A stretch of DNA of 64,000 nt from the NCBI GenBank assembly GCA_034406715.1, contig CP137880.1, forward strand, positions 488,501 through 552,500, read 5' to 3'. The translations under genes were made by a program, and so were the position numbers. The DNA is from Rhodotorula mucilaginosa. Its lineage: Eukaryota > Basidiomycota > Microbotryomycetes > Sporidiobolales > Sporidiobolaceae. The notes beneath the pieces are model-generated. The model did not search any database, had not been told where the DNA came from, and was given only the letters and a program-made list of their open reading frames with translations. Shown here one piece after another: positions 53,801-64,000 of this stretch. The number at the start of each line of letters is the position of its first letter. The stretch's first letter is position 1.

Positions 53801-54340
53801 ATGGGCGGCAAGGTGTCGCGGAAGCGGAGAGAGACGTGCGAGACGCTGATGCGGTTGAAGGAGGCCTTGTCGGCGTACGAGAACGGTCACCTCGAGCAGG
53901 CCCTCCAGGTGGGTTGGTTGTTTGCGTGATTGAGCCGAGCTGACTTTTTCGGTGCGCGCGCAGGCGATCGAGTCGACGAACTTGATCCCGCTGCACTCGG
54001 ACTTGGTGCACCTGATCCGCGCCGCCGAGGACGTCAACTCGGTCGACGACGCGATCGTCCGGAACCTCGACATTGTCCTCGTCGCGACGATGACGATCCT
54101 GTACAAGCTGCACCAGCAACTCAAGGAGAGTCCGTTTGGCGGCGACGCGTCCAGGCAGCAGCGCATGCAGGAGTACCGCGCCAAGGCTCGCAGCCTCATG
54201 ACCTTTGCAGGAATGGTGAGCGCGAGGTTTTACCATCTAGGTAGGTATTTTTCGCTGACTCTCTCTGCACACAGCTCCGATACCGTCTCTCGAGCGATAC
54301 CTATTCTCAACTGACCCGCCTCGACGTCTTTATCAACTGA
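50826..54340 (+). CDS. NIC96: Nucleoporin NIC96/NUP93
   Basis: Linker nucleoporin of the nuclear pore inner ring. ATG 50826 begins MASLASLLEQSQRLQASLAA; the N-terminal helical region contains IQLGLDQIESQSRRIAGR, as in Nic96/Nup93. Next come AYLLASGGVNAEQLSSNINS, HTHEQAIISAIEEGRRATTA, MMRYDRVIRRLNEFRKEGFA, TETWRLLSHLVRECDVLNGE and TYIEKTIASRPAEAALGG. The large ACE1-type helical core includes TPVWARIYYLLRSGHAKEAL, DPYKHALYKLIGRVEINRRN, TEDWLWFQLSLVRE, HFAIALAYYGLLRVP and AKTEQIERDLK-like segments. The end is LRYRLSSDTYSQLTRLDVFI + Asn, TGA at 54338-54340. About 14 exons, near 850-900 residues, normal for the family. A second inner-ring nucleoporin (NUP155) opens this window. Confidence 0.93.
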
Positions 54341-54702
54341 GTCGGGAGAACGTTCGCGCCAGTGCAATCCTAATCAGTTGCCTTTCTGTTCGTGTGCGCG
54401 TGCGGGGTCGTTGATAGGTCGATACGGAGAGCGGTCGAGAGAGTGCGGAGCGCGGGTGAGCCGTCGAAACTCGCCCGCGGCTGGTTCTCGTCCTCTCGCT
54501 CCCGTAGCTCCGTTGCTTCGGATCTCGTTACCACATACTCTCGCTCTTCGACGTCGGCTCCTACGCTCTCCTCGCCCTTAAGCTCTCAAACTCGCTCGAT
54601 CGGCTCGACTCTGCTCTTCTCTTCCCCCACTTCTCCGACGACAAACGACGCATCCGCACTCTCGCTCACTCAGCCTAGACCGCCTTCCAACACCTGATCG
54701 CC
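54341..54702. promoter_or_regulatory. Intergenic region upstream of UPRT
   Basis: 362 bp, C/T-rich in its right half (about 54490-54640), leading to the ATG at 54703. Confidence 0.45.
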
Positions 54703-55798
54703 ATGTCTGTCAACCTCGTCTCGCACCCTCTTGTCCAGGCCAAGCTGTCGGAACTGCGCTCTGTCGAGACGTCGTCGCACCGATTCCGCGCCCTCGTCAA
54801 GGAACTGTCGACCCTCTTGGGCATCGAGGCTTCGAGGGATTTGCCCCTCAAAGATGTGCCTGGTGTGCGTACACTCACTCACTCTGTCGTGGACTACCTC
54901 GTCTGCCACGAGCGTGGACAGCTCTCGCGCCGCTGTCTCTCCCCCACATGGGCTTCTCTCGAGGCTCCTGCGCTGGAGCGAGCGACGCTTTACGGCCTGA
55001 CAGCTGACACGGTGTACTGGCCTGTGGACAGCTCAAGAGCCCGATCACCGAGTTTACCGGCAAGGCGATCGCGCCCAAGATTGGCCTCTCGCCGATCCTC
55101 CGTGCAGGAATCGGCATGACGGAGCGTGAGTGCTGGAGTCTTTCTCGTGTTTCCTCCGAACTGAACTTACTCTTTTCCAACCCCCAGCCATCCTCGACCT
55201 GTTCCCGGAAGCGAGTGTGTTCTACCTCGGCCTGTTCCGAGAAAAAGTCTCGCTCCAGCCCGTCGAATACGTGTGTTCTACCCGCGCTCTCTCTCCCTTT
55301 CTTTCTATACTGACGTCCTGAGAGCGATGCCGTCAGTACCAAAAACTTCCGCCGACGCCGACGGTCGAGACGCTGTACCTCTTGGATCCGCTGATCGCCA
55401 CCGGCGGAACTGCCGTCGCCGCCATCTCGATCCTTGTGAGTCGTCGCACGTTCGCTCCGGATCATTTACTCCCACGGGAGAACTTTGAAGCTGACAGTCC
55501 CGCGCCCGCTTCGCACAGCTCGACTGGGGTCTCGAGATCTCGCAGATCAAGGTCCTCTCGATTCTCGGTTCCAAGCCTGGTCTGACTCGCGTCGCCGAGG
55601 CATACCCTGGACTCGAGATCTATACCTGCGGCATCGACGATGTGGTGCGTTCGGCCTGGCCTTGGTGTCTTTTTTTGTTGTCCGAAGCTCGCGCCGCCGA
55701 CGCTGACTTTCGCTTGACGCTGGCAGCTCTCGGAAGACGGCATGATTGTGCCCGGACTTGGAGACTCGGGTGACCGGTTGTTCAACACGGCGTCGTAG
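54703..55798 (+). CDS. upp: Uracil phosphoribosyltransferase, bacterial (Upp) type
   Basis: Pyrimidine salvage: uracil + PRPP to UMP. ATG 54703: VSHPLVQAKLSELRSVETSS, then RFRALVKELSTLLGIEASRD and LPLKDV, which is the N-terminus of bacterial Upp. Then ITEFTGKAIAPKIGLSPILR with AGIGMTE (substrate loop), ILDLFPEASVFYLGLFREKV, LQPVEYYQKLP, the PRPP loop LYLLDPLIATGGTAVAAISI, LDWGLEISQIKVLSILGSKP, YPGLEIYTCGIDDVLSEDGM and IVPGLGDSGDRLF (uracil-binding end). TAG at 55796-55798. About 210 residues, the bacterial length; six short introns. The yeast FUR1 protein has a different N-terminal half, so this looks like the bacterial branch (see findings). All catalytic motifs are intact. Confidence 0.93.
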
Positions 55799-55881
55799 AC
55801 GTGTTCTGAATGTGATCTCAAAGTATTGTTGTAAAGCACGTGCTCAGGAATCGAGCGTTTTGTTACAAAGCGAAAGCGCCT

Positions 55882-57059
55882 CTACAACGAGTGGACCTTC
55901 CAGAGGTCGTCGCCGAGGAAGGTGACGTTCTCGACGCCAATGTTCTTGTTGAGGCTGCGGATCTCGTCGGTGCTCATGGCGAGCAAGCCGATCGCGAGGG
56001 CGTGCTCCTTGCCGTACGCGTGGACGGCGACGGGCGAACCGGACGGGATGTTGGCGGACGAGGGGGGCAGGTAGCCCGTCGGCGAGGTCATGCCCGGGCT
56101 GGCGTGCACTGAGTCAGTTCTCTTTTTACTACGGGGCTGTCTGAGGAAACGTGGGCATTTGTCGGGGATTAGAGAACGCGAGACGGACCACATGATGTTG
56201 GCACCGGCGAGGACAAACTTGATCGCGCCGCGGTCGACACCGACGCGAGGGAGCATATTCGGGACTGCAGCGTCGAGAGACGTCAATCAGCACGTACTTT
56301 GAAGAAAATGGCCGTGGTGCGAACTCACAGCGGTGGAGGACCTTGAGGGTCGGGTAGAAGGGGCCGTCGAAATGTTGGAAAAAGATGGGCTCGCCGTGCA
56401 CGGTGTAGATCGAGATGTGATCCCGGCTGTTGGCGCGCACATTCGTCAGTGTCGCTTCTGAGATTACGAGCGCCCTCCCGCAGAGATGCACCACTTGACG
56501 AGCGAGAGCGTCTCCTTTTTCGGCCAGATCAGGTCCAACACGGTCAACGCCTCGTCCTCCTGGTCTTCTCCTCCGAGGGGAGGTTGGGCGGGTAGACTCG
56601 TCGGCTCTTCGTCTTGGTCGTCACCGCCGCCTCCTCGCTTGTTGCCGCCCTTTTTGCCGCCTCCTTTGCCAGACTTTCCTGCCGCTGCTTTTCCCGCCCG
56701 CTTGTCCTTTCCGGCTCCCTTCTTTCTCTTTCCCGCATTGTTGTCTTCCTCTTCTTCGTCGCTGTCGTGTGCTGCCTCTGTCGGTTGCTGGGCTGGTGTG
56801 GAGGCGGCGAGAGGAGGAGGAGGAGCGGCGGCGGGGTGCGAGAGGAAGGGGATTTGCTCGAGGACCTTGGCGCGGATCTGCCGTTGGGCGGACGACTTCA
56901 TCGGCGCGTTGCCGGCCACGTGCTCCTTGGGCGTGAAGCTGTGCGGCGGTTACGGTCGCGGTCACGGTGTCATCGACGAGGTCGAGGTCGAGAGGAGGCG
57001 ATTGAAAGAGTCAGTTCGAGCAGGCGGGCGGTTCTACTCGACGCTTACTTTTTAAACAT
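55882..57059 (-). CDS. TMA20: TMA20/MCTS1 translation re-initiation factor with Lys-rich insert
   Basis: Ribosome-associated factor; with its partner Tma22/DENR it acts in recycling and re-initiation (family knowledge). Exon 1 is only 11 nt (ATG TTT AAA AA, from 57059), followed by GTAAGC. Exon 2 continues FTPKEHVAGNAPMKSSAQRQ, then IRAKVLEQIPFLSHP. A low-complexity insert of about 80 residues follows (Ala/Pro, then DSDEEEEDNN, then Lys/Gly-rich, then acidic), before the fold resumes with VLDLIWPKKETLSLVKW. Next come HISIYTVHGEPIFFQHFDGP with FYPTLKVLHRC, NMLPRVGVDRGAIKFVLAGA + NIM, and the PUA end SPGMTSPTGYLPPSSANIPS, AVHAYGKEHALAIGLLAMST, NKNIGVENVTFLGDDLWKVH. Stop TAG at 55882-55884. The insert makes it clearly longer than the usual roughly 180 residues. 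Confidence 0.92.
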
Positions 57060-57458
57060 CTTGGCTGCTCTTGTACCCTGGAACAGTCTGCGTCCAAGGC
57101 TTGGAGAGCTTCGAGCGAGCGGAGGACGAGTTTGAACGGCTCGAGGGGAGGCTTTCACAAGAGCGCGCGACTTGGGACTTGAGAATTCTTCACTCTGCTT
57201 CCCTCACCAGACAACTTACACGCGAGACTGGGCAAGACGGCACACGAGCTCGACTTGCTTCAGCTGTACGCCATTTGCAGCCTCGCCGTGCCAAGACTCA
57301 CCCCTCGCCTCGCCCTTTTCGTGCCGTCGACTTTTTTCGCTCGTTCCCATCGCAACGCTCGCCTAGTCAGTGCGAGTCTGCGCCCAGACAGCTGCAGTGC
57401 GCGTGGCTAATCCCGCATACCATCGATAGACTGCGCTCCGCTTTCACGAACGCCCCCG
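57060..57458. promoter_or_regulatory. Divergent promoter TMA20 / ETT1-like gene
   Basis: 399 bp between two divergent ATGs of translation-related genes. Nothing else was recognised. Confidence 0.5.
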
Positions 57459-58900
57459 ATGCCGCCGAAACCGCTCGGCAAGCCCAAGGGCCTCAAGGCC
57501 TCGAAGCGCGCCGCGCCCTTTGACCCGTCGGCAGCAGCAGCCAGTACCGGCCCAGCCCTGAACAAGGAAGGCACGATGCCGCTCGACGAAGACGCCCTGA
57601 CCGTCGCCGACCTGTTTGAACTCGCCTCGCGCGTCCTCGAGATCCTGTACCCGTTCCCGACCTCGCTCCGCTTCGAACCCGTCGAACCCGCCGACTCGGG
57701 AGCCGAAGACGCCCGCAACTTGCTCCGAGGCATCTTGCACGGCTGCGACGTCCTCGCGCCGTATCTCAACGACCCCCGCCGCGCCGAGATGGAGCAGGAC
57801 AAACTCGACGCGCTCGGGTTGGGAGAGGCGGGCGTCGCGGCGGTCCATGTGCGGTACCTCCAGGCGTTTGCGTTGAGGCACCTCGGCGAGCTGTTCCAGC
57901 CCGCGCCCCCCGTGGCCGTCGTCGCCGGCTCGAAGCGTCGCAAAGTCGACCTCCGCGAACCGCAATCGGCCAGCGAGTGGTTCGAGGTCGCCGAGGAGCG
58001 CTTGTCGGGCGACGTGTCGGCGTCGGACTCGATCCTCGCCGTCCTTGTGGCCGCCGAGCGGGCGCACGTGTTGGCCGTTTCATCTCCGTCGCCCCACTTG
58101 AGCGACCTCAAAGACCGCCTCGCTGGCGTGATCGCTTCCCTCGGCTCGCTCGAGCCCGAGTCCACTTCGCCGCCCTCGGCCGACGTCACCGACGCCTGGT
58201 ACGCCGCCCTGCGCGCCCTCACCGCCGGCGTCGTCGCCCTCGAAGGGATCCGCGATCCTGAAGGGGTATGCGCGGTCACCGCTTCCTCCGTCGACGTGCC
58301 GCTTTGTTCGTCGTTTGGAGTCGCGGTCGAGCCGCCGAGTCCGGTCCTGGGTTGGCTTCGCGAGGTGCTGGCGGCCGATGTGCAGCTCGCACGGTTTGGA
58401 ATCGCCGAGGACTGGATCGAAGAGCGGTACCGAGCCGATGCGGACGACGAGGACGAGGACGGAGAGGTCGCTGCCTTGCCGGACGAAGCGCAACCTTTTG
58501 TCGAGGTCGTGCAGGAGTATGGTCGGCAGGGTGCGTTCGTTTTCGCAGTTTCGCCAGGGCTGACGTTCTGACTTTTTTTCCCGCCGACAGCCATCGCTTC
58601 TCTCCGGAGTACTCTCGCCGGCGAGGTTCCGCATCCGTCGGCGCGGACAGCGCAGTATCGCAAGGTGCGGCGGGTGCTTTCTTGGATGCGATTTGCTGTC
58701 TTTTCCTGACTTTAAGCCTCTCGCCGCAGCTCGAGGAGGCGCTCTTGCTGTCTTCGGCTTTGATCGACCCGTCCGACGAGGAGGCGCTTGACAAGCTCGA
58801 GGCCGAGGTGGAGCAGGTGCGCAAGGATGGCGGGTTGAACGAGAAGGAGGAGGAGGAGGCGGATAGCAACGAGGCGGGCAAGCCGGACGCTTCTTCGTAG
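57459..58900 (+). CDS. ETT1: ETT1/NRO1-like TPR protein (probable)
   Basis: ATG 57459 begins MPPKPLGKPKGLKASKRAAP, a Lys-rich start like that of ETT1 (enhancer of translation termination; Nro1 in fission yeast). The rest is helical and acidic: TVADLFELASRVLEILYPFP, NLLRGILHGCDVLAPYLNDP (similar to the family's ...IIHECD... helix), VHVRYLQAFALRHLGELFQP, SEWFEVAEERLSGDVSASDS, ILAVLVAAERAHVLAV, WYAALRALTAGVVALEGIRD and FVEVVQEYGRQ. Two introns lie near 58531-58591 and 58663-58730. The last exon starts LEEALLLSSALIDPSDEEAL and ends in a Glu-rich tail with TAG at 58898-58900. About 430 residues. The family call rests on length, ends and pattern, not on a sharp motif. It is the last gene before the telomere-like tract. 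Confidence 0.5.
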
Positions 58901-59137
58901 AGGTGCGTGGCAGTCTCTTGTCGATCTTTCGCTTCTTTCTCGCTGACTTTTTCCCTCTCCAGCTGGGCTGTCCGACTTTGGAACGCCACATCCCCTTGAC
59001 TGGCGCCCCGTCGTTGCCCGCGGAGCGGGCCAGATTGTTGTTCGGAAAGGACCGCGGAAGCTTGCCGCGAAGCGGCTGTCTGTGCGCTTCCGCGCACGTG
59101 AAAGCGAGCGACCTCGTGAACGTGAGCCAGGATGACC
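58901..59137. other. Short spacer between the last gene and the telomeric repeat
   Basis: 237 bp with normal GC-rich composition and no recognised feature; it connects the ETT1-like stop codon directly to the TTAGGG tract. No subtelomeric gene family, helicase or X/Y-type element is present. Confidence 0.7.
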
Positions 59138-59196
59138 TTAGGTTAGGGTTAGGGTTAGGGTTAGGTTAGGGTTAGGGTATGGGTTTCGGCGTTAGG
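59138..59196 (+). repeat. Telomere-type (TTAGGG)n tract
   Basis: From 59138 to 59177 the sequence is two TTAGG and five TTAGGG units in a row. Degenerate units (TATGGG, TTTCGG, CGTTAGG) continue to 59196. TTAGGG on the strand running rightward is the orientation expected at a right-hand chromosome end. It is very short for a whole telomere and is followed by 4.8 kb of other sequence. Confidence 0.9.
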
Positions 59197-62100
59197 TGAT
59201 AGACACGAGTATCCCCCCCCAACACCAGTGAAGCTACTCCACAACCTTCTTCCCGCAGCCCAATACCACTCCCCTGCTTCAACCTGTAGCACCAATGATC
59301 CTCTTAAAGTGATCATCGATCACTCATCACCTTTTCCATCCCCACTCAACAACAACACGCCAGAACACAGCATGTAACACACGCACCAACACAACATCCC
59401 AAACCACGGTACCACAAAAAAATATCACAAACAACAACACACTTAACAGGTGCAAAACTTACCACCATCGACCAAACATACCATCCAAAGTCGCTATATC
59501 AACAAAAATAAACAAACACAACAACCACGGAAGATTCGTCCGGCCACCTCCGCTCCTACTCCCAAGAGCTACCTAACACAACAACCCCCCCAACACCCAC
59601 CACTTCCCAGACCTGTTACCCATTAAGACCTCAGAAACCACCACCCCACCCCCCAACCCCACCCATAACCACCGTCCATATGCCCGACCCTCTATTCCAA
59701 TACAACCCACCCACTCACCCAAGCACACCGCAAGGCCAACCCCCATCCGGCCGCACCCTATCCGGACCGGTAAAACCCAACCCCTAACCAACCCCTCCCT
59801 ACCCAAACGCAACCCCCCAACAAAGAAACAAAAAATAAAAAAACACACCTAACAAACGAGACGCACCCACCTAGTTCCTGCTACCGATACAGAACAAACG
59901 AAAACGACAAAAACCGAGTGAAAGCAGAGAGCATACGTACAGCCCGACACCCCTACGAAAACGAATACACCAGGACCGAAACAAAACAACACACAACTTT
60001 CATACCAGGATCCACAAAGCCAAACAGCAGACAAAACCACACAACAAACTACGCTCAAACAAACACCACGACCACACAAGCCCCTAGCAAACAAACTCTA
60101 ACAGAAGCGAAAACGCAACCTATGAACCACAAACAACAAAAGACATAACGCAATCCCAACTTAAGAAACAGGCAGAAAACAACCAAAAAAACAGAAAACT
60201 GACGCGTGATAAATACAACTCCAAGCCAGGATACAAAAAACACTAGAAAAATATAGAGCCCGCACACACTAACAACAACAACCCCACAGACAGAACCTAC
60301 ATAACGGAACAAACCACACGCTCACACTACACCAAACACAAAAAAAATAGAAAGCTAACAACGACACCCATACTTAATGCAAAGAACAAAGTAGCTACAC
60401 GCTCAACCCGGAGACAAACACTACGGGAAGAAACAAAAAAAGGCCACCACAACAGAACGAACTGGAGGAACAACACTAACCCGACGAAAGAAGAGAACAC
60501 GTTAACAACACCTAACGACAGCAGTACATGGAAGAAACACTAAAACCATACTCCTACCAAGTAAACGAAACACCATATTGCAGAAGCCCCTACCTACCGA
60601 TAAAAACCACCAGCAAACAGCAAAAAATATAAAAGTCAACACCTTATAAAAAATCAAAAAACACACCTAGTAATCCGTAACAACGAGCCTATGAACGACA
60701 GAAACGGCATACACGAAGGAAATGAAACGAAGCCCAAAAAAACCCACCTACAAATAGAAACGCACGACAACCAGATATGACATAGATACACCTACTCAAA
60801 ACCAGATCATACCCAAGCCAATGAAATCGCAAAAAAAAAATAAAAAAAACCACAACAAGCAGAAACTCCAAACAAAAATAAAACAATAGTGCGTACTAAA
60901 CTAAAAGCACGCCAACCCTACAATACAACAAACCTACGCCGGAGAAGACACGACAAAACCTACTCGCGACTTCAATTAACCAAACCAAGAACACATAGGA
61001 CCAAACACGAAAACAAACCAGGACACTACCAAACAAAACCACCTCTTAAACATAACAAAACCAGAACATACAAGAACTAAGAGAAAAACACTAAAGAACA
61101 AACCGCGAAACACACAGACACCCTCGAGAAGAAATAAACAACAAGACCCACGAAACACTAACTAACCATAACGCAATCAAGATCACCTAAAAACCCTAAC
61201 CGACAACCAATGATACCCTAACAAGACACACCTCACTAACACTAAAAATAGGGAATCTCTACCCGCAAATCCTGAACAACCAGACATAAAACAACAATTA
61301 TACTATCGAGCAAGCGAGCACAGACAAAACAAACACAAGCGACCGACAGAAAAAAAGTTAGCACAAACTACACAAAACCAAGTCGTCGGTAAACAGCGAT
61401 CGATACGGTACAACCCGAAAAAAGATAAAAGTTGCCACTCACTCAAACCGCAATCCAAACGACCAAACAACCCCACCCAGAACAACAACACCAACCCTAA
61501 CCCAACACACAAAACATAATAAGACACACCTAATGAACACTAAAAACCAAAGAGAAAAGAAGCCACAAAACACCAGCACACCCCTGGACCGAAGGCAATA
61601 ACGACATCAATACAATCACAAAAAAGAAAAACCAAAACACATCCCACAAACCACGCTCAACTCTAAACTACAGCCACAAACACATATCCATACATAATGG
61701 GCAACCAAAAAAACGGAGTCCACAGAGCAAAACAGGCCAATCCCCAACACACAAGTAAGAAAAAACGACCACCAAATCAAAACAAACACAATCAGACAAA
61801 AACCTAAGGGGAACCGCAATCAACTACAAAAAAACGAACACTAGACCGTAACCCCACAAGCAAACACCTAAGAAGGACCCAACCATACCAAGCGACTTCT
61901 TACCACCACAACACCTAAATTATCTACGCAACAAGAGACATCCTGTATTACGACCCAACGCAAGCTCAGCAAAACCCAATCCACCCCCACGACAGCACCA
62001 AGAACAACAAGCCCGAAACACACCAAACAGAAATAAAAAACTTAACCCACAAGGTTTGCATACGAACGAGAGACCCTAACCCTAACACAATCACAAGACA

Positions 62101-64000
62101 CACCCCATCCAGACCCACCCAGTTAAAAAGACAAACTCCAACCTCAAATAACATGAAACCCGAGCATTACAAAACCACGAACAACAACGTCAAAGCCTCT
62201 GTCAGAAAGAGGCAAACAACTACCTCCATACCGCAACACAGCTAAAAGAAGCCTTTCCTAACCCTATTCTAACCCACTAAAATAACCCAACCGCAGAGAC
62301 CCTAGGAAACACACCGGCCCCTAGGGCAAAAACAGCAAAAGAAGCCCTACAGCCACACAAAGCACACCAAACAACCAGAAAAGTATAAACAGGCCACGGC
62401 GACCGACTAAAAACCCCAACTAGACCAAAAACGGTTATAAGAACCCAGTCACGGCCTTACGGCACCACCCCACCCCGAACCTACAAATATCAGCTACATC
62501 ATATCCCCCGAACCAAGAGGACAAAAAAAAAAGGACTTCACAGTCCACAAAGCGAAACTCGCCTCCCAAAAACAAACAACCATCAATCCCAAGAAATCAA
62601 CAAAGAAACAAGGAAACACCCTACACGAACTCAATCGAAGATACCTACAATAAACACCATAGGATACGAGGACCAGAAAAGGCCCCAGCCTGCACATCAC
62701 ACAGACAAACCCACCATCCAAAAACAACGCCTAACCAAAAACAAACACCCCGCGGGCAACGAGACAAAGAAAGTACCAACAGACCAGGAACCTAAACAAA
62801 AGAAACAAATGTAGGAAACCTGACATAGCAACACCCAAACTACAGCAGCCACTAACCCCCACACACAAACCAACAAAATAAACCCTAAAAGGGACAGCCA
62901 AACAACCCCGTAACCACGCCCCAGTCATGACGAACAACAACAACCGTAGAAAAATTTAGGAACCCTAAAGAATACATTCCTACCCGAGAGAAAAAAACCT
63001 ATAAATAAACTTCCAAACAAACCTTAATCTAAAAAACAAACACGCAATACAGCGCGGCACCGTGACAGCGAGACCCTAGAAAAAACCTAGAACGGCAGCC
63101 GCCGACAAAAACAGGAACAAAAAAAGAATAACCAAAAGAGCCAGATAACCATCCCAACGCGGGCGATCCACAATAACACGCATAGACAAATACCAACAAG
63201 TCCAAAAGAAGCATCATAAAAAACAGAGTACCCCTCAACAACAGATCAATACTCCCAATACCACGACATCTATCCAGCGACCCCACACAGCAACAACAAA
63301 CCTATAGACAAAGAACACACTACAGAGTCGATGGATACAACCCAACCTACACCAATACGGCCTAATCCAGACCCAACAACCAAGAACACCCCCACACGCA
63401 CGCACAACACGCGAACAACACTACGAAAGCAAGACCTAAAAGAAAACTATCAGAATGACGCCTAAACACACCTAAACCCACCAGGACCCGCAAAAAAAAC
63501 AAGCCACTAAATAATCAGAACCCCAAGACACCACGAACCCTGAAACGAAAAAAACCCACACAACACCGCTTAACCAACAACAGACTCCACAACCCTACAA
63601 GGAATAACAGACCACCCAAACCTAGAGGCCGCAGAGAAGGCCACAATACACAAAGAGGAACCCGAATATCCCAAACAGCAGTAAACAGAAAATAGACCCT
63701 GCAAGACACCCAACCCTGCCACACATTGACACCAGACCACGAACGTAAATCAGGCAACGAAAGAACACAACTTGACAAGGGAGCAGCTCCGAGGAAAAAA
63801 CAGACAACAAAGCACAAGAGAACCAAGCACCAACACTAACCAGCCAATCAACCTCCCACCCAGACCACCAAAAGACAAAACCCTACGACACCCACACTTA
63901 TCCCGATACCTAATTACCAGAAAAGGACAAGCCCAGAGCCAACGGAAACCCAGCCACACCCCCAAGCACCAACTGTCTCACCACACCTAAGACCCACCTC
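59197..64000. other. 4.8-kb A+C-rich, gene-free tail
   Basis: Composition changes abruptly after the telomeric tract. In two 60-base lines I counted by hand, A+C was 46/60 (60181-60240; A alone 33) and 51/60 (63841-63900). C dominates in the left part (about 59580-59830), A further right. T occurs mostly as CTA/TA, and whole CCCTAA-type units recur, for example 59780-59790, 61195-61200, 61494-61503, 62074-62086 and 62259-62265. Minus-strand open frames of 60-103 codons exist only because T/G-rich translation rarely meets stops; they read as Val/Gly/Phe/Cys/Leu-rich nonsense without introns or motifs. No gene, RNA gene or known transposon was recognised. Confidence 0.8.

Follow-up and report, generated by a model that had tools for sequence, protein, structure and literature searches.

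Long reads in which an adapter has been missed, or which fold back on themselves, can flip strand past a chromosome end, and unpolished contig ends are rich in errors where no reads overlap. Base-calling noise is, in fact, the more usual thing to find at a contig end. Telomere-specific miscalls are also known from nanopore reads, in which, according to the available text of PMC9414165, CCCTAA is turned into tandem CTTCTT or CCCTGG, and TTAGGG into TTAAAA. In Rhodotorula, scaffolds capped by telomeric repeats are described in the available text of PMC5922974 (PacBio RS II), PMC9027234 and PMC12509554, the last of which names the repeat as TTAGGG.

The window analysed here, which is the whole stretch of 64,000 nucleotides, consists up to 59.0 kb of ordinary GC-rich DNA, with a GC content of 0.55-0.68 per kb. 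Its body encodes the eukaryotic-looking N-terminus of a Nup133-like nucleoporin, as well as a leucyl-tRNA synthetase fragment, likewise eukaryotic-looking, whose best matches among solved structures are cytoplasmic leucine--tRNA ligases; the source may be a basidiomycete yeast. A search of Rfam gave 0 matches across the window. A 370-aa ORF without a Pfam match (57459-58571, + strand), the start of which may resemble fungal Ett1-like proteins, adjoins the telomere, and the stop of a + strand ORF lies at 58900, about 240 bases before the telomeric repeats begin. Tandem Repeats Finder reported no subtelomeric repeat array in 58900-59138. Second copies of exact subtelomere patterns were sought in viral contigs and in prokaryote genome contigs, with 0 found in either collection, which is the outcome that a eukaryotic window would give.

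The telomere itself is a short TTAGGG tract (59138-59185, + strand), delimited by Tandem Repeats Finder and direct reading. It comprises only 48 bases and looks genuine. The units are arranged in tandem on the + strand and adjoin the subtelomere, and the G-rich strand on + is what a right-hand chromosome end should show. The tract is followed by a transition (59186-59200, + strand) of telomere-like, G/T-rich letters in which the repeat fades, placed by direct reading and by the change in composition at 59199. This last position is the single maximum-likelihood change-point in a scan of 58000-63000, and from there to the end of the window A+C amounts to about 78%, which bears out the observation of the first-pass annotation that a TTAGGG tract gives way to an A+C skew on the + strand. 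The A+C fraction of the + strand lies between 0.72 and 0.825 in 24 of the 24 blocks of 200 bases in 59201-64000. This tail reaches the window edge and continues beyond it, its 4.8 kb being a lower bound.

Within the tail, a composition change-point at 59821 separates a first, C-richer part (59201-59820; C 0.431, A 0.340, G 0.090, T 0.139) from the main part (59821-64000; A 0.467, C 0.312, G 0.125, T 0.096), which is nearly memoryless and homogeneous. In these last 4,180 bases, divided into 20 blocks, the test for homogeneity of composition gives a chi-square of 51.9 (57 df, p 0.67); the same statistic ranges from 52.7 to 224.7 in 14 body segments, one of which comes close to the tail value. 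A drift from C-rich to A-rich with distance from the junction had been described previously, and had been taken to fit a gradual loss of quality, but also divergence with distance. Instead of a gradient, one step is seen near 59820, past which A falls slightly, from 0.497 to 0.443, and C rises from 0.281 to 0.331 over four quarters. Nor is a gradual loss of quality over kilobases observed, as the composition changes no more than tens of bases away from the telomere, and once more at that step.

The letters of the tail are also nearly independent of one another. The mutual information between adjacent bases is 0.0044 bits in 59201-64000, versus 0.0218-0.0409 bits in every one of 12 body segments of equal length. 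Markov models were trained on one half and scored on the other half, in both directions, with plain base frequencies as the reference; for orders 1-4 the held-out gain in 59821-64000 was -2.7, -11.8, -67.7 and -129.4 nats, whereas order 1 gained 37.2 to 111.8 nats in all 14 body segments. As the gain is also negative in some body segments (3/14 at order 3 and 7/14 at order 4), it is the low orders that carry the contrast between tail and body. In 59201-59820, dependence at lags 1-6 stays within chance (G 4.2-12.9 on 9 df). The lengths of single-letter runs in the tail resemble, by eye, those of independent draws, and the longest exact repeat in 59821-64000 has 14 bases (mean of random controls, 14.5). 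Since the tail resembles random draws from an alphabet rich in A and C, it most likely represents an artefact of sequencing or assembly that was left at a chromosome end, and not a new kind of DNA.

A single ORF in the tail reaches 100 aa (103 aa, 63515-63826, minus strand), and it has no Pfam match. When 500 random sequences were drawn with the composition of the tail, 99.4% contained an ORF of at least 103 aa, and the longest ORF of the tail is shorter than theirs, a possible reason being that CTAA-rich traces add stops. The earlier statement that no believable gene is found here is upheld in that no ORF exceeds chance length.

Several departures from independence have nevertheless been detected. 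Residual dependence is seen at lag 1 (G 38.4 on 9 df), where CT and TA are over-represented. Two stretches of 22 bases, 59830-59851 and 60648-60669, match each other with 95% identity; the E value of 3e-4 is overstated, given that it comes from uniform-composition statistics, and the match is possibly due to chance in A+C-rich sequence. A short near-palindrome is visible by eye around tgatcatcgatca (59311-59325), in the C-richer part, and may be the source of the raised inverted-repeat score of the tail (18, versus 14-16 in 5 shuffles). The lag-1 dependence, the shortness of the longest ORF, the self-match and the inverted-repeat score were all counted against noise, and none of these departures suggests a function.

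Searches for homology gave no match to the tail among 72,556 plasmid records or 50,697 phage records. Against the rest of the window only 14-base telomere matches appeared at E up to 1, and against the upstream 5.2 kb no match was obtained on either strand. A fold-back was sought by aligning 59187-64000 locally with the reverse complement of 54001-59186. The score of 171 is within that of shuffles (178 +/- 16 in 40 block shuffles, 28 of them at or above 171, with 10 further shuffles in agreement). In simulations, the test recovers a fold-back with 40% substitution (631 vs 438), and barely one with 50% (445 vs 419). A fold-back onto 54001-59186 was thus not detected by a test sensitive up to about 40% substitution.

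Traces of the telomeric C-strand in the tail are real. Counts of CCCTAA words were compared with 300 simulations of 59201-64000 at each of orders 1, 2 and 3. Cyclic 8-mers of CCCTAA were observed 21 times (expected 3.4, 5.0 and 6.8, respectively) and cyclic 10-mers 9 times (expected 0.31, 0.49 and 0.72); no simulation reached either count, and CCCTAA ranks first of 700 hexamer classes for both word lengths and all three orders. The signal is weaker for shorter words, as CCCTAA 6-mers rank 11th against order 3, with 18/300 simulations at or above the observed value. Other classes are in excess as well, AACAAC most of all (32 8-mers vs 10-15 expected), and 7-mers of TTAGGG are absent from the tail. 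An exact copy of CCCTAACCCTAA is present at a single position of the tail, 62074, and 5 other places there match it with 2 mismatches. The stretch richest in CCCTAA traces is 61190-62275 (+ strand), where the telomeric C-strand is read on +; 24 of the 36 cyclic 7-mers fall in 61192-62269, an interval picked after the hits were known. A local-alignment scan for CCCTAA gave a weaker signal, with 8 overlapping windows scoring at least 10 (simulated mean 1.2, maximum 9, in 40 simulations). The first-pass annotation had reported recurrent CCCTAA units and suggested testing for a period of 6. Over-representation holds, with the 8-mers leading their 700 classes, but the units are neither tandem nor even, being clustered in 61192-62269; Tandem Repeats Finder reported no array after 59185, and the autocorrelation at lag 6 (2.2 sd) equals that at lag 4.

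Judged from the letters alone, we are confident that the tail is error-dominated base-calling noise that was kept as an unsupported, unpolished contig end; its letters are real in the record, and very probably do not represent real DNA. This reading rests on the near-memoryless letters, their homogeneity, the lack of homology in the collections searched and the CCCTAA traces, and it also fits the presence of these traces without TTAGGG and a start no more than tens of bases away from the telomere. The true sequence of the chromosome would stop at or shortly past the TTAGGG tract. One or a few long reads would reach the chromosome end and then continue in a low-quality state, or turn onto the C-strand, by way of a fold-back or of a hairpin adapter that went unrecognised. 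Nearly all the letters would then be A/C-biased noise calls, with short, correctly read bursts of CCCTAA between them, and the errors would be left uncorrected at a contig end where no reads overlap. We infer the sequencing platform, the fold-back and the lack of coverage that form part of this account. In PacBio chemistry, A and C would be on a common colour channel, and noise calls would then lean towards A+C; a literature search found no paper on this shared channel. A search covering part of the possible wordings found no description of an A+C-rich noise tail, which was counted against noise. Among the three hypotheses put forward previously, an artefact is the best fit to the memoryless and homogeneous letters, while for its fold-back component the CCCTAA traces are the one line of evidence.

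A sub-case of the artefact would be that the whole tail is telomeric (CCCTAA)n C-strand, reached through a fold-back or a missed hairpin adapter and sequenced in a single, very noisy pass that got about half of the letters, or more, wrong. The excess of cyclic 8-mers, first among the 700 classes, would be accounted for in this way, and simulated (CCCTAA)n with at least 50% substitution plus indels loses the held-out Markov gain as the tail does. However, simulations at 40% substitution keep order-1 gains that the tail lacks (32 and 44 nats in the two runs listed, of three), and those at 50% yield only 8-13 cyclic 8-mers in three runs, fewer than the 20 counted for the tail in this comparison. 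A uniform CCCTAA model ranks 36-94 of 700, with a negative log-likelihood ratio in 8/8 settings; as a full description of the tail it was rejected, and it was kept as a partial trace only. Training a model seeded with CCCTAA gives held-out gains of -8.5 and +0.4 nats for the two halves. Moreover, the matches are clustered and not spread, and kilobases of C-strand would be needed where the clean G-strand tract has only 48 bases. These data make an evenly noisy C-strand unlikely. Freely trained cyclic models of periods 4-8 were also tried and rejected; the best-trained model of each period gained -6.5 to -1.6 nats when halves were tested one way and +2.0 to +8.8 nats the other way. Period 4 gains most among them, which gives no support to period 6, and the positive gains of these five best-trained periodic models in one held-out direction were counted against noise. 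A tail made mostly of noise and interrupted by short bursts of C-strand would fit better than errors at an even rate.

It is very improbable that the tail is a decayed head-to-head telomere fusion, in which TTAGGG was fused with the C-strand of a different end and then worn by mutation. The orientation, TTAGGG followed by CCCTAA traces, would agree with such an origin, but after mutational decay the dinucleotide habits typical of the genome should still be there, and they are missing from the tail; a second subtelomere would be expected and none appears before the window edge, nor is there a reverse-complement match to the subtelomere present here. Least probable of all are kilobases of genuine, untemplated A+C-biased DNA with C-strand units, made beyond the short telomere by an unknown process as if a near-random polymerase activity had extended the chromosome end (which is what this would mean if true). 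Untemplated synthesis would also give near-memoryless, biased and homogeneous letters, and the tail starts at a chromosome end, but base-calling noise predicts the same statistics and is the commoner finding at a contig end. No positive evidence was seen either for this genuine asymmetric sequence or for a decayed fusion.

Under the preferred reading as base-calling noise, the tail probably has no biological significance. It is a caution, as noise tails inflate assemblies and can pass for strange subtelomeric DNA. A near-zero dependence between adjacent bases, tested here in one window, may flag such tails quickly and without the reads.

With respect to the known systems, the tail would share with missed-adapter and fold-back reads the strand flip after a chromosome end, and with unpolished, low-quality contig ends an error-rich sequence in a place that no other reads cover. 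It differs from a plain fold-back in that the reverse complement of the subtelomere, expected there, was not detected. It would join the nanopore telomere miscalls, as presented in the available text of PMC9414165, among the telomere-specific base-calling artefacts of long reads. In contrast to those miscalls, it holds no tandem array and its letters are A+C noise, an unlikeness that was counted against noise; Tandem Repeats Finder reported no arrays of TTAAAA, CTTCTT or CCCTGG after 59185, and CTTCTT is found twice in the tail as a 6-mer. The available text on the Rhodotorula scaffolds (PMC5922974, PMC9027234, PMC12509554) mentions no A+C-rich tail, and what those scaffolds share with this locus is the presence of telomeric repeats at their ends, as in the tract at 59138-59185.
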